Positions 10,897 through 34,945 of a stretch of 35,162 bases of DNA are shown piece by piece. Every line of letters starts with the position of its first letter. Within the stretch, counting starts at the first letter, position 1. A program made the translations under genes and the position numbers. Origin of the DNA: Dehalococcoidia bacterium. GTDB lineage: Bacteria > Chloroflexota > Dehalococcoidia > Lucifugimonadales > Lucifugimonadaceae. The stretch is from the NCBI GenBank assembly GCA_009693115.1, contig SHXW01000024.1:1-35162 (forward strand), given 5' to 3'. A model generated the notes under the pieces. The model had not been told where the DNA came from. It made no database searches and saw nothing but the letters and a program-made list of their open reading frames with translations.

Positions 10897-12699
10897 CTAC
10901 CAAACAAGGGCCTGACCATCGCGGCGGGGGTCGCCTGCGGCCATGAGAGCGCCGGACTCGGGGTGCACCTGTATCGCCCCTTCGGATCCCGGCCCGGCCC
11001 ACGGCGCGATGGCCTGCACGGGGTGGCCTTTGTGCTGCAGATCCTTCAGAGCGGCAGCCCCCACACGGTTTTCAACCTCAAGAGCGTTGCGTTCGGCGTG
11101 CGGGAAACCCGAGCCTGTCCGGCCCTGATAGTGCGTCCAGCGCGCGGCGTGCAGCGCCTCGGAGACGTTGAAGCCGTGATCGAAGACGGCGGAGATGACC
11201 TGCAGGTTTGATTGCACCTGCGTGTCCGCGCCGGGCGTGCCACAGACAAGCTCCAACGCTCCACCCTCCTCTGCCGGGCCCGAGAACGCCATTACAGGGT
11301 TCATGGTGTGGCGCACGCGCTGGCCGGGCGTCAGCCGGTCTATGTGATCCGGGTCGAGGTGCCAGTAGGTCATGCGGTTGTTGAGGAGGATGCCCGTCCG
11401 CCCGGCGACGATGCCTGAGCCGTATGCCATCTGGATGCTTTGCAGTTCGCCGACAGCGTTGCCCCAACGGTCCACTACGCAGAAGTGCGTGGTGTCTGAC
11501 TCCTTCGAACCGACCTTCTGTTTGCGCTTATAAGGCCCCGCCTTCTCGCCAGGGCGCATGAGGCCGGTCTGAGGCGTGTAGTACGTCTTGGATTTGTCAG
11601 GCCCGCGGCGCATGTATTGCCATGGGTCGCCCTCGGCCACGGCCGCGGCGGCGCGATCCTTCTTGATCAACTTCGCCCGCTGGGCGGCGTACTCCTTCGA
11701 GAGAAGTCCCTCAACAGGCACATCAACGTGGTCAGGATCCGCCAGGTACGCCTCGCGGTCTGCGAATGCCAGCCTCTTGGCCTCGACGAGCAGGTGCAGG
11801 CTCTCCGGGGTGTTGTGGCCCAGAGTAGCGATGTCAAACCGTTCGACCATGCCAAGCATTTGCAGGAGCACGTGGCCGGACGAGTTGGGCGGAGCTTCAT
11901 AGACGGTACGCCCGCGGTAGGTGGTGGAGATGGGCGCCTGCCACTGCATCTTGTGGCGCTTGAAGTCTTCAAGCGTCAGGATGCCGCCGTTCTTCTGGGA
12001 GAATTGCACGATGTCGCGGGCGATCTCGCCTTCATAGAAGGCGTCGCGTCCCTGTTCCGCTATTACGCGGTATGTGTGCGCCAGTGAGGGGTTGCGGCGG
12101 ACCTCGCCCGGCAGGAGAGGCTGGCCCTTTGGAGCAAAAATCTTCGCCGAGTCAGGAAAGGTATTGAGAAATGGGTGTGGAGCCGCGAGTTGGTGGGAGT
12201 AGTAGGAGACCGGGACGCCTTCCTCGGACAGTTCGATGGCCGGCCCCAGACATTCGAGCAGGCTCAGCGTGCCGTAACGTGCGTGCACGGCGAGCAGAGC
12301 GTCAACGATGCCGGGGACGGAGACGGACATCATGCCGTAGCTGGGGATGCCGTCTTTGTAGCGCTCCGGCGTAGCGGCGAGGGGGGCCGCGCCCGTGCCG
12401 TTGGCCACTTCAATAACCGGGCCTTTGCCCGCCCCGCTGCGTCGCCCGTTTTTGGGAGGGGCGCCATGCTTCATATAGACCATCACGAAGCCGTCGCCGC
12501 CGATGGTTGAACCGGCCGGTTCTGCGACGCCCAGTGCAAAGGCGACGGCCACAGCTGCATCAACTGCGTTGCCGCCTTTGTGGAGGATCTTCATTCCGGC
12601 CATGGCCGCGAGCGGGTGGTTCGCCACGACGGCGCCCATGGCGCCCATGCGGACAGGCGTATAAGCCTCAGACTTGACGCCGTGGGGTGAGTGATCCAC
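10897..12699 (-). CDS. Gamma-glutamyltransferase family protein (Ntn hydrolase)
   Basis: This is a roughly 600-residue member of the self-cleaving GGT family. The nucleophile is the first Thr of DTTHFCVVD (about residue 403), where autocleavage would yield large (~402) and small (~198) subunits, a normal split. The N-terminus has VVANHPLAAMAGMKILHKGGNAVDAAVA and GGDGF, conserved in the family. The canonical small-subunit substrate motifs (N-D/E-x-M-D-D-F and the SSM oxyanion motif) are replaced by NNRMTYWHLD and RHTMNPVM, so true glutathione chemistry is doubtful. GTG 12699 is chosen, with GAGG 8 nt upstream; the frame is open 66 codons further but that stretch runs into the neighbouring gene. 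No clear signal peptide with this start. Confidence 0.85.
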   Translation of the reverse strand: MDHSPHGVKSEAYTPVRMGAMGAVVANHPLAAMAGMKILHKGGNAVDAAVAVAFALGVAEPAGSTIGGDGFVMVYMKHGAPPKNGRRSGAGKGPVIEVANGTGAAPLAATPERYKDGIPSYGMMSVSVPGIVDALLAVHARYGTLSLLECLGPAIELSEEGVPVSYYSHQLAAPHPFLNTFPDSAKIFAPKGQPLLPGEVRRNPSLAHTYRVIAEQGRDAFYEGEIARDIVQFSQKNGGILTLEDFKRHKMQWQAPISTTYRGRTVYEAPPNSSGHVLLQMLGMVERFDIATLGHNTPESLHLLVEAKRLAFADREAYLADPDHVDVPVEGLLSKEYAAQRAKLIKKDRAAAAVAEGDPWQYMRRGPDKSKTYYTPQTGLMRPGEKAGPYKRKQKVGSKESDTTHFCVVDRWGNAVGELQSIQMAYGSGIVAGRTGILLNNRMTYWHLDPDHIDRLTPGQRVRHTMNPVMAFSGPAEEGGALELVCGTPGADTQVQSNLQVISAVFDHGFNVSEALHAARWTHYQGRTGSGFPHAERNALEVENRVGAAALKDLQHKGHPVQAIAPWAGPGSEGAIQVHPESGALMAAGDPRRDGQALVW

Positions 12700-14736: not shown

Positions 14737-16428
14737 ATGACACACATCCTCGCCATAGACCAGGGCACCACGTCCACGCGGGCCATAGTGTTCGATGCTC
14801 AGGACGCGCGGCCCATCGCGTCGGCGCAGATTGAGCTGAAGCAGCACTTCCCGCAGCCGGGTTGGGTCGAACACGACCCGATCGCGATCGTCAACGCTGC
14901 GGTATCAGTCGCCAGGCAGGCCGTCGAACGGGCCGGGCTGCACATGCGGGACATCGCTTGCATGGGAATCACGAACCAGCGCGAGACGACTGTCGTATGG
15001 GAGCGGGCGACGGGCCGACCTGTGGCGAATGCGATTGTCTGGCAGTGCCGCCGCACCGCCGAGGTGTGCCGCAACCTCGAGGATGCCGGGCACGGCCCGG
15101 ATATCCGCTCGCGCACGGGGCTGGTGCTGGACGCCTATTTTTCTGCGACGAAGTTGCGCTGGCTGCTTGATCATGTGCCCGACGGCCAGAAACGGGCCGC
15201 AGATGGAGAATTGTGCTTCGGCACGGTGGACTCGTGGCTGCTGTTCCGTCTGACGATGCGGGGGGCCTTCGGCCCTGTTGCCCGGCCTGAGCATATGGCG
15301 GGGCCCGCCTCCCGCGCATCCAGCGGGATCCTTCGACCGGCTCAAAGCGCCCACGCCATTCACGCCACGGATTCGACAAACGCGTCGCGCACCATGCTGT
15401 TGAACCTGCACGACCTGCGCTGGGATCCGGATCTGTTGTCGCTTTTCGACATACCGGAGGTCATGCTGCCCGATGTGCTGCCGTGCGCTGCGGACTTTGG
15501 CGTGACTGCGCCTGAGGTCCTAGGCGCAGAGGTGCCCGTCACTGGGATCGCAGGCGACCAGCACGCCGCGCTTTACGGTGAAGCCTGTTTCGAACCGGGC
15601 ATGGTGAAGTGCACTTATGGGACGGGTGCGTTTGTGCTGTCAGTGACCGGCGCGAAGCCGCCGGTCTCGTCCGCTGCGGCTCGTCGCACTGAGCCAGGTC
15701 CCGACCGTGAAAGCAGCGGGTCACTGTCCATGTCCTCACCCTCTCCCGCAGGGAGAGGAGACGGCCACGCAGACCACGGCCTAATCGCCACGCTGGGGTG
15801 GGAGGCGGGGCGCAAGAGGGCTTACGCGTTGGAAGGCAGCGTGTTCATAACGGGCGCGGCGGTGCAGTGGCTGCGCGATGGCCTGTGCATCATCAACAGT
15901 TCATCGGAGGCGAGCGCGCTCGCGGACTCCATCGAGGACAATGCCGGTGTCTATTTCGTTCCTGCCTTTGTGGGGCTGGGCGCGCCACATTGGGACGCAT
16001 CTGCCCGCGGCACGGTCACGGGCCTGACGCGAGGCTCGACACGCGCACACATCGCACGCGCCGCGCTGGAGGCGGCTGCGTATCAGGTGCGGGATGTGGT
16101 CGCCGCGATGGACGCAGCAGCCCGTCGCATGACGTCGTCGCAGCCCCTGCGCGTTGACGGAGGGCAGACTGCAAGCGAGTTCTTGATGCAGTTTCAGGCA
16201 GACATCCTGGGCCGACCCGTTGAAGTATCGGCAGTTCCAGAGGCGAGCGCGCTGGGGGCGGCATTCCTTGCAGGACGGGGCGCAGCCATATGGCGGAGCG
16301 AGAAAGAGGTGGCTGGACTGTGGCAGTCGGCGCACCGCTATGAGCCACAGATGACGGAGTCGCGCCGTCAGACGCTGATTGCCGGCTGGAACGATGCAGT
16401 GAGACGGACGCGGCTGCTCGCGACCTAG
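14737..16428 (+). CDS. glpK: Glycerol kinase with two in-frame insertions
   Basis: This FGGY-family kinase phosphorylates glycerol to sn-glycerol 3-phosphate with ATP. Diagnostic stretches are AIDQGTTSTRAIVFD (6-20), GWVEHDP (42-48), GITNQRETTVVW (77-88), the glycerol-site TDSTNASRTM (211-220), AGDQHAALYG (272-281), KCTYGTGAF (291-299), and the ATP-site VDGGQTASEFLMQ (473-485). At 563 residues it is about 65 longer than usual (~495-500). The excess lies in two places: residues about 174-203, between LFRLT and HATDSTNAS, and about 308-347, between VTGAKP and LIATLGWE. Both insertions are Pro/Ser/Arg/Gly-rich, lie in surface loops of the fold, and contain dispersed-repeat DNA. The core motifs are intact, so activity is likely. 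No clear ribosome site precedes ATG 14,737. Confidence 0.93.
   Translation: MTHILAIDQGTTSTRAIVFDAQDARPIASAQIELKQHFPQPGWVEHDPIAIVNAAVSVARQAVERAGLHMRDIACMGITNQRETTVVWERATGRPVANAIVWQCRRTAEVCRNLEDAGHGPDIRSRTGLVLDAYFSATKLRWLLDHVPDGQKRAADGELCFGTVDSWLLFRLTMRGAFGPVARPEHMAGPASRASSGILRPAQSAHAIHATDSTNASRTMLLNLHDLRWDPDLLSLFDIPEVMLPDVLPCAADFGVTAPEVLGAEVPVTGIAGDQHAALYGEACFEPGMVKCTYGTGAFVLSVTGAKPPVSSAAARRTEPGPDRESSGSLSMSSPSPAGRGDGHADHGLIATLGWEAGRKRAYALEGSVFITGAAVQWLRDGLCIINSSSEASALADSIEDNAGVYFVPAFVGLGAPHWDASARGTVTGLTRGSTRAHIARAALEAAAYQVRDVVAAMDAAARRMTSSQPLRVDGGQTASEFLMQFQADILGRPVEVSAVPEASALGAAFLAGRGAAIWRSEKEVAGLWQSAHRYEPQMTESRRQTLIAGWNDAVRRTRLLAT
15327..15347 (+). repeat. Family B repeat-like sequence inside glpK (insertion 1)
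   Basis: GATCCTTCGACCGGCTCAAAG lies within the extra segment of glpK at about 15,256-15,345. It matches the core of the intergenic family B repeats (GAT.CTTCG..GCTCAG). The reading frame passes through it without a stop, encoding about ILRPAQS. Confidence 0.55.
15740..15758 (+). repeat. Family A palindromic repeat inside glpK (insertion 2)
   Basis: CCTCTCCC (15,740-15,747) and GGGAGAGG (15,751-15,758) form perfect 8-bp arms around GCA, preceded by TCCTCA. This is the same unit as the intergenic copies at 19,903 and 34,884. It lies within the second extra segment of glpK (about 15,658-15,777) and is translated as SPSPAGRGD. Confidence 0.7.
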
Positions 16429-17672: not shown

Positions 17673-17705
17673 TGCGCCCCTCCCCCTTGCGGGAGAGGGG
17701 CGCAT
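17672..17705. terminator. Strong hairpin between convergent genes (family A palindrome)
   Basis: ATGCGCCCCTC (17,672-17,682) pairs with GAGGGGCGCAT (17,695-17,705), with further CCC/GGG pairing inside. It lies between the UxuA-like gene (+) and the VOC gene (-), so it could terminate both transcripts. There is no T-run, and its core resembles the family A repeat, so it may be a repeat rather than a dedicated terminator. Confidence 0.5.
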
Positions 17706-18763: not shown

Positions 18764-18794
18764 GCCCTCACTCTCGCCCCCTCCCGGTGGGGGC
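18764..18794. repeat. Family A palindromic repeat filling an intergenic gap
   Basis: GCCCTCACTCTC is followed by GCCCCC (18,776-18,781), a 7-nt loop and GGGGGC (18,789-18,794). It fills nearly the whole 36-nt gap between the MDR stop (18,800) and the cyclotransferase start (18,763). Read on the minus strand, its edge GTGAGGG serves as the ribosome site of the downstream gene. Confidence 0.55.
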
Positions 18795-19902: not shown

Positions 19903-19937
19903 CCCTCTCCCAGCGGGAGAGGGTTTCAGGGTGAGGG
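19903..19937. repeat. Family A palindromic repeat (best copy with conserved flank)
   Basis: CCCTCTCCC (19,903-19,911) and GGGAGAGGG (19,915-19,923) are perfect 9-bp arms around AGC, followed by TTTCAGGGTGAGGG. Read in reverse, this is CCCTCACCCTGAAA then the palindrome, which is the same layout as the copy inside glpK. It lies in the divergent region between the MDR and ManD-type genes. Confidence 0.75.
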
Positions 19938-19969
19938 CATCTGCGGCGACACAGAGTCTTTCACCCGCA

Positions 19970-22354: not shown

Positions 22355-22380
22355 GATACTTCGCTGTGCTCAGGATGACA
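22355..22380. repeat. Dispersed repeat, family B
   Basis: GATACTTCGC, TGTG, then CTCAGGATGACA. It has the same core as the copies at 5,383, 16,452 and 17,651. It sits immediately beside the inverted repeat at 22,299, as the 5,383 copy does with its own inverted repeat. Confidence 0.6.
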
Positions 22381-22455
22381 TGGCCGGACGGGGCCCCCTG
22401 GCAGCGCTCGGGACGAGCAGGCACACGATGTCGCAACGAGTTGCAGCGCGGCGGT

Positions 22456-23435: not shown

Positions 23436-24470
23436 CTACCGTGGCAGCATCTTCACGAGCGGTTTGATGTTGTCAGGGTCTGCTTTGAACCCGACGCCGA
23501 GGTCTGTCACGAGCTTCGTGATGGCATCCGAGAAGGGCGTCTTCACGCCTGCCTTGCGCCCCTGAGCGGCAACGTAGCCGTTCAGGTACTCGATCTCCGT
23601 CCTGCGCCCCTTCAACACGTCCTGCCCGAACGACGGCCTGCCGCCCGCGGTACGTTGCGCGGTTTCTAGGAGCTTCAGTTCCACCTGTTCAACATTCCGG
23701 CCTTCTGCTGCGTCTATGATCTCAGCAGGCGCGATGCCCATCACCGGGTCCGTCTTGTACCCGAGGGCCTTCGCCACGCGCGCCGTCTCTGCGCCGAGCT
23801 GGATGCCGATGCGCCGCAGTTCAGGAATGGTGCGCGTCTCGGCAGACCCGTGCCCGGTCAGACCTGCCACTGCATTCGCCATGCAGTTCACCATGAGTTT
23901 TGACCACCTGTGCCCCATCAGGTTTGTGGTGACGTGCGTCTCCGCCACACCAGACCAGATCTTCGCCAGTTCCTGCGCCCGAGCCGAGTTGGAGCCGTCA
24001 AGCTCGCCGATCTCGAAACCATACGCGTTGCGGTCGGTGCGCTGGACGTGAGCCGGCTCGTACATCCCGGCACCGATCGTGACCACGCAACCCACCTCCC
24101 TTTCACGGCCCACAATGGCGGCGATGCGTTCGTCGTTGATGCCGTTCTGGGCGGAAATGAAAGCCCCTTCCGGCTTCACGTAACCCTTGATCAGGTGCGT
24201 GGCCCAATCGGTGTCGTATGACTTCACGGCGACAACCGCGTAATCGAAGGGGTCCGTGACGGACTGCAATTCGTGGATGTGCAGCGCTCTGACCTTCGCC
24301 ACCTTCACTCCGTCCGGCCACGTCATCTTGAGGCCGTGCTTTTTCATGGCCTCAACGTGTTCCGGCCACTGGTCTATCAGGGTCACGTCCTGTCCTGCGA
24401 GGGTGAGCATCCCGCCGATGTTGCCACCGATGGCGCCGGCCCCGATGATCCCGATGCGTCTCTCTGCCAT
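23436..24470 (-). CDS. Ketopantoate reductase family protein (ApbA/PanE-like)
   Basis: This 344-residue NADP-dependent dehydrogenase has the N-terminal nucleotide motif IGAGAIGGNIGG (9-20) and FDYAVVAVKSYDT with the family's catalytic-type Lys. The C-terminal helical domain includes HRWSKLMVNCMANAVAGLTG. Genuine PanE makes pantoate for coenzyme A. At 344 residues, and in a genome rich in paralogous dehydrogenases, a different 2-oxoacid or 2-hydroxyacid substrate is equally possible. GGAGG lies just ahead of ATG 24,470. The flanking genes give no pantothenate context. Confidence 0.87.
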   Translation of the reverse strand: MAERRIGIIGAGAIGGNIGGMLTLAGQDVTLIDQWPEHVEAMKKHGLKMTWPDGVKVAKVRALHIHELQSVTDPFDYAVVAVKSYDTDWATHLIKGYVKPEGAFISAQNGINDERIAAIVGREREVGCVVTIGAGMYEPAHVQRTDRNAYGFEIGELDGSNSARAQELAKIWSGVAETHVTTNLMGHRWSKLMVNCMANAVAGLTGHGSAETRTIPELRRIGIQLGAETARVAKALGYKTDPVMGIAPAEIIDAAEGRNVEQVELKLLETAQRTAGGRPSFGQDVLKGRRTEIEYLNGYVAAQGRKAGVKTPFSDAITKLVTDLGVGFKADPDNIKPLVKMLPR

Positions 24471-34883: not shown

Positions 34884-34906
34884 CCCTCTCCCTGCAAGGG
34901 AGAGGG
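34884..34906. repeat. Family A palindromic repeat
   Basis: CCCTCTCCC (34,884-34,892) and GGGAGAGGG (34,898-34,906) are perfect 9-bp arms around TGCAA, followed by CTCGGGTGTGGG. It lies just after the ABC operon. Confidence 0.7.
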
Positions 34907-34945
34907 CTCGGGTGTGGGTCGCGAGCCCTTCACCATCCACACGCC

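Follow-up and report, generated by a model that had tools for sequence, protein, structure and literature searches.

An in-frame PIT/TM-type palindromic repeat within a predicted surface loop of glycerol kinase in an uncultured SAR202-type Chloroflexota

How did a glycerol kinase gene of an uncultured bacterium come to carry a palindromic repeat within its reading frame, and is that repeat part of a family scattered through the genome? The locus lies in a window of 35,162 nucleotides (the whole stretch of DNA analyzed, contig C20) from the genome of an uncultured SAR202-type Chloroflexota (Dehalococcoidia), a draft of 2.02 Mb in 40 contigs, 95.6% complete. An earlier note on this DNA described a palindromic repeat translated inside glycerol kinase and likened it to the palindromic elements of Rickettsia.

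The open reading frame at positions 14,737–16,428 (plus strand) was assigned to glpK on both the family model and the conserved residues. Its product scored 642 bits against TIGR01311 (cut-off 590), retrieved glycerol kinases in the PDB search and matched them in fold; no other match of this level was found in the host genome. The nearest glycerol kinases among named genomes were those of uncultured Dehalococcoidia and SAR202 bacteria. The frame is open across 563 amino acids and the invariant residues are retained, in line with the earlier claim that frame and catalytic motifs were kept.

Two in-frame inserts, delimited by alignments, codon usage and pLDDT, interrupt this protein. Insert 1 (15,256–15,360, plus strand) adds approximately 33 residues between FRLT and IHATD, and insert 2 (15,652–15,777, plus strand) approximately 35 residues between VTGAKP and LIATLGWE. 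Both sizes were taken from the alignment with the archaeal enzyme 2zf5, in which 43 residues at the insert-2 loop face 8 (+35); the roughly 40 extra residues first reported at this place are real, and number about 35 by this measure. The insert-2 stretch is KPPVSSAAARRTEPGPDRESSGSLSMSSPSPAGRGDGHADHG, at a place where most relatives have about 4–10 residues. The alignment check proposed in the earlier note showed both inserts to be missing from 23 of 23 aligned relatives. Three glycerol kinases of genus g10 (L099, L100 and L101) had an unrelated, shorter extension of 15–17 residues at the insert-2 loop, which indicates that this loop tolerates a change of length without the repeat.

The codon-usage score was negative just in the two inserts (-0.17 and -0.20), whose codon usage resembles that of non-coding DNA, and normal in the remainder of glpK. 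An AlphaFold model built on a 32-sequence alignment reached a mean pLDDT of 86.5, with values below 50 solely at residues 180–204 and 314–345, i.e., in the two inserts, and its fold matched solved glycerol kinases with a TM score of about 0.8. On the simplest reading, the enzyme would be functional and carry two disordered loops at its surface. Translation of the loop and its retention in the protein are suggested by the open frame together with the fold.

Insert 2 contains the exact palindrome CCTCTCCC-GCA-GGGAGAGG at 15,740–15,758, precisely where the 8-bp arms had been placed before. The palindrome belongs to a longer repeat unit (15,730–15,759), which, taking 5'-CCCTCTCCC...GGGTGAGGGC-3' as the orientation of the unit, lies on the minus strand and has a shortened third arm. 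Oriented copies follow the scheme CCCTCTCCC-N3/5-GGGAGAGGG-N3-GGGTGAGGGC-AT, and on the minus strand the copy within glycerol kinase has the sequence CCTCTCCC-TGC-GGGAGAGG-GTGAGGACAT. Its first two arms are perfect over 8 bases, and the third, displaced by about 6 bases, is degenerate, approximately 6 bases of the unit being absent ahead of it. The hexamer TCCTCA, regarded earlier as a shared lead-in preceding the palindrome, is not a separate element shared by the copies and would belong to the degenerate third arm of the minus-strand unit; the unit itself does recur at 19,903 and 34,884, as had been stated. The copy at 19,903–19,938 (plus strand) is intergenic with the third arm GGGTGAGGGC, and that at 34,884–34,919 (plus strand) is of a subtype with a 5-base loop (CCCTCTCCCTGCAAGGGAGAGGGCTCGGGTGTGGGT). 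The window also holds a degenerate copy, GCCCCTCCCCCTTGCGGGAGAGGG, at 17,676–17,699 (plus strand), and a partial one at 18,764–18,785 (minus strand) comprising the second and third arms only, with 2 mismatches. A 2-mismatch site at 12,102, within another gene, was near the chance level and was set aside.

The repeat is dispersed far beyond the window. With up to 3 mismatches, the window gave 7 palindrome matches vs. 0.2 expected by chance, and a genome-wide search returned 133 sites for the pattern CCTCTCCCNNNGGGAGAGG (up to 2 mismatches) compared with 3 for the reversed control. The pattern CTCTCCC-N0-10-GGGAGAG was found at 64 exact sites in the whole genome and at none in the control. A sample of about 466 kb, chosen around repeats, contained 132 unique copies with up to 2 arm mismatches, vs. 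0–7 when the arms were permuted, and the sampled sequence included 47 full three-arm copies (CCCTCTCCC / GGGAGAGGG / GGGTGAGGG) with short loops. Two subtypes were distinguished in the genome sample, one with a 3-base loop and a GGGTGAGGGC-AT tail, the other with a 5-base loop and a GGGTGYGGGT-CGCG tail. The occurrence of the repeat in relatives was patchy, with approximately 60–75 copies in some genomes and none in many; in the relatives rich in the repeat, none of 19 sampled copies lay inside an ORF. Judged by sequence against Table 1 of PMC4666352, the dispersed repeat has all three arms of the PIT/TM intrastrand-triplex motif and is a form of this known motif.

Insert 1 contains a different repeat, F2 (CCTTCGACNNGCTCAGG, 15,330–15,346, plus strand), located by pattern search with 1 mismatch to the searched pattern. 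Searched on both strands with up to 2 mismatches, F2 gave 117 sites vs. 29 in the control, and it was also present inside LysRS, HyuB, GcvT and an AMP ligase. The window also holds, at 22,369–22,391 and 24,310–24,332, an inverted pair of 23 bases (CTCAGGATGACATGGCCGGACGG), possibly a further part of the F2 family.

Glycerol kinase is not the only conserved gene with such repeats. The in-gene counts, made with a simple codon-usage test on about 466 kb of the host genome chosen around repeats, placed 8 of the 132 sampled PIT copies (glycerol kinase included) well within coding ORFs under a strict test, and 0–1 in the controls. Most copies in the host genome lie between genes, as would be expected if those inside genes were usually purged by selection. 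Inserts coincide with PIT repeats in frame in CarA (24 residues more than the E. coli homologue), ArgH (28 more than the Thermus homologue) and a racemase-family enzyme (27 extra). In LysRS, an insert of 12–15 residues falls exactly at an F2 repeat and is missing from 19 relatives and from the aligned PDB homologue. In the same LysRS (L135, G000:C4:45717-47417), an N-terminal linker also contains some 30 inserted residues, TSDKLPLPTPAGQDLGERMAPAASKGAETAARPQGERAPEGHS, that 19 relatives lack.

Looser scans detected repeats in AddA (two), PolA, HyuA and the linker of a HAD protein, and those of AceE and PolA lie within long linkers, for which PDB alignments gave no exact insert size. Repeat-bearing in-frame inserts are likely in PolA, AddA (two), AceE, HyuA/HyuB, GcvT, an MFS protein and the HAD protein. 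DNA polymerase I (L204) and the AddA-type nuclease (L007), the latter with two copies in frame, echo the DNA-repair bias of REPs described in PMC3733652. IleRS (L213), a candidate outside the confirmed set, has PSHDGRGD in a linker. In the AMP-ligase ORF L161 (G000:C4:36146), the C-terminus and the stop codon come from a PIT copy (ARQFPSPAGRGSG*), and an inverted F2 pair lies in frame (PEFVEGPTALGRGPSAGSGR). Copies at the predicted N-termini of further ORFs (L192, L200, L202, L205, L210, L228 and others) were excluded, as they have a low codon score and probably lie ahead of the true start.

The CarA linker varies in length across the family with unrelated sequences, being long in several relatives that have no repeat at this place, and CarA of the relative G002 (L272) carries F2 in frame (PEPVEGGKAGHSWLRQAQPS) at residue 259, in the same linker as the host PIT repeat. 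This site therefore tolerates changes of length, with repeats as one of their sources.

The repeat family, the open frame, the insertion relative to homologues and the normal predicted fold are established, and we infer that the repeat, or DNA bearing it, was inserted and did not grow in place. The explanation that we favor, and hold to be likely, is that insert 2 is a lineage-specific, in-frame translated stretch with a PIT/TM copy in a surface loop, neutral or selfish, and one case of a wider pattern in the genome involving two or more repeat families. According to this explanation, a PIT-bearing stretch would have entered glpK in frame in this lineage and would occupy a surface hairpin loop, where the added length would leave the fold undisturbed; insert 2 would for that reason have survived selection, as a disordered loop rich in Pro, Ser, Gly and Arg. 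Two or more dispersed, mostly intergenic families would likewise have settled in frame in conserved proteins, within loops and in the linkers between domains. The inserted DNA is probably neutral or selfish, and tolerated. Weighing against the favored explanation are the small part of the insert that is repeat, the lack of a clear target-site duplication and of a Y1/RAYT match, the lengthening of the CarA linker and of the g10 glycerol kinase loop in relatives with no repeat there, and the finding that all 19 copies sampled in repeat-rich relatives lay outside ORFs.

How the stretch entered is less clear-cut. The repeat covers just about 30 of the approximately 105 inserted bases, so that insert 2 is more than the element alone; the earlier description of a translated repeat stands for the in-frame dispersed unit and not for the insert as a whole. 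The rest of insert 2 (approximately 15,652–15,729) has no recognisable repeat. In a whole-genome DNA search for its source, the single match, of 34 bases, fell at the repeat, and a word-7 local BLAST with insert 2 gave scattered single matches alone outside it. Target-site duplications, which the earlier note had proposed to look for, showed no clear excess over permuted flanks in 47 oriented copies, although old copies could have lost one. No match to the Y1/RAYT transposase (PF01797) was obtained in the host genome, at 95.6% completeness, and 2 of the 40 genomes searched have one. No empty-site allele was seen among the compared genomes, which include none of the same genus. With no target-site duplication, transposase or empty site, and with most of the insert lacking a source, insertion of the unit and capture of intergenic DNA are both possible routes.

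The second route is a strong contender, to which we give a little under an even chance. Illegitimate recombination or a replication error would have copied a PIT-containing piece of intergenic DNA into the gene, with the repeat as a passenger or as a break-prone trigger. The small share of the repeat in the insert and the missing target-site duplication favor such a capture, as do the non-coding-like codon usage of the whole insert, the lengthening of relatives' loops by unrelated sequence and the association of the PIT motif with locally unstable DNA in E. coli (PMC4666352). It is opposed by the non-repeat part having no source elsewhere in the genome, by LysRS and GcvT, in which the added residues hardly exceed the repeat itself, and by the recurrence of two different repeat families in such inserts. 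Capture concerns only the route of entry and leaves the favored explanation otherwise intact.

The inserts might instead be functional, i.e., loops selected to regulate or localize the enzymes. Their presence in several conserved enzymes, the repeated hits to the same CarA linker in different genera and the recurrence of DNA-repair proteins (PolA, AddA), as in PMC3733652, would fit this idea, which we nevertheless regard as improbable. PIT copies in ORFs are read in several frames, and with two repeat families involved there is no single conserved peptide; copies on both strands, the predicted disorder of the loops and their absence, in the alignments, from the relatives' glycerol kinases and LysRS point the same way. 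It is more improbable again that glpK is a pseudogene or that the repeat is a misjoin of the metagenome assembly. The genome is a draft in 40 contigs, assemblies fail at repeats and genus g1 has no second genome, but a frame of 563 residues open despite two inserts, the retained invariant residues, the normal predicted fold and the same in-frame pattern in several unrelated genes all argue against an artifact or a decayed gene. Least probable of all is that the palindrome arose by chance in a low-complexity loop of the usual kind and is unconnected to the dispersed repeat, for although high-G+C linkers rich in Pro, Gly, Ser and Arg hold similar words, permuted arms gave 0–7 sites vs. 132 (in ORFs, 0–1 vs. 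8) and the third arm (GTGAGGACAT) is recognisable next to the palindrome.

The favored explanation, a tolerated insertion of repeat-bearing DNA, can be extended, although we consider the extension rather doubtful: the dispersed, predicted triplex-forming repeats, or DNA bearing them, might be an active source of new protein loops in this SAR202 lineage, entering many essential proteins in frame, with two unrelated repeat families doing so. If so, repeat-driven loop insertion would be a general means by which proteins of these bacteria change in length. As natural experiments, the inserts make it possible to gauge the amount of added sequence that LysRS, CarA, ArgH and other essential enzymes can bear, and to ask whether new protein segments arise from non-B DNA repeats; they are also a warning that loops of this kind in proteins from metagenomes may derive from repeats.

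Among known systems, the PIT/TM motif is the closest. In E. coli MG1655 it (TMECO) has 23 of 23 copies between genes, and it occurs in many copies per genome with no transposase known (PMC4666352). The host repeat shares its CCCTCTCCC-loop-GGGAGAGGG-3 nt-GGGTGAGGGC architecture, sequence and high copy number; loops of 3 or 5 bases and the GGGTGYGGGT-CGCG subtype are seen in the host and, unlike in E. coli, some copies are in frame within conserved genes. The intergenic location is the reported habit in E. coli and lies outside the sequence definition of the motif, so in-gene copies are compatible with membership. PMC10969869 summarizes the Rickettsia palindromic elements as in-frame insertions of approximately 100–150 bp in unrelated conserved genes, encoding a conserved peptide in proteins presumed functional. 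The parallel drawn in the earlier note holds for palindromic repeats in frame in several unrelated conserved genes, and fails for a new palindromic element, the host repeat being a member of the known PIT/TM family; at about 30–36 bp, read in several frames and unrelated in sequence, it differs from the Rickettsia elements in size and in having no conserved peptide. A MITE is likewise a poor match, as no clear target-site duplication accompanies the repeat.

Outside Rickettsia, in-frame palindromic repeats have been described in O. terrae, Thauera, Xanthomonas and others (PMC3733652). The intragenic GTAG/CGTC REPs of that study, otherwise mostly intergenic, occur in genes including those for DNA polymerase I, UvrD/Rep helicase, RecBCD and tRNA synthetases. 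The PIT copies here are similarly short, palindromic, in frame within genes and mostly intergenic otherwise, whereas the PIT unit has neither a GTAG nor a CGTC tag and its host, a Dehalococcoidia/SAR202-type Chloroflexota, has no RAYT. Our literature search, with most subscription journals outside its reach, returned no report of in-frame PIT/TM repeats or of the phenomenon in Chloroflexota. Protein-coding palindromic repeats are thus extended to uncultured SAR202-type Chloroflexota and to a family described as intergenic. The novelty claimed for this locus lies in the repeat family and the host group; the concept of in-frame palindromic repeats was already known beyond Rickettsia (PMC3733652).
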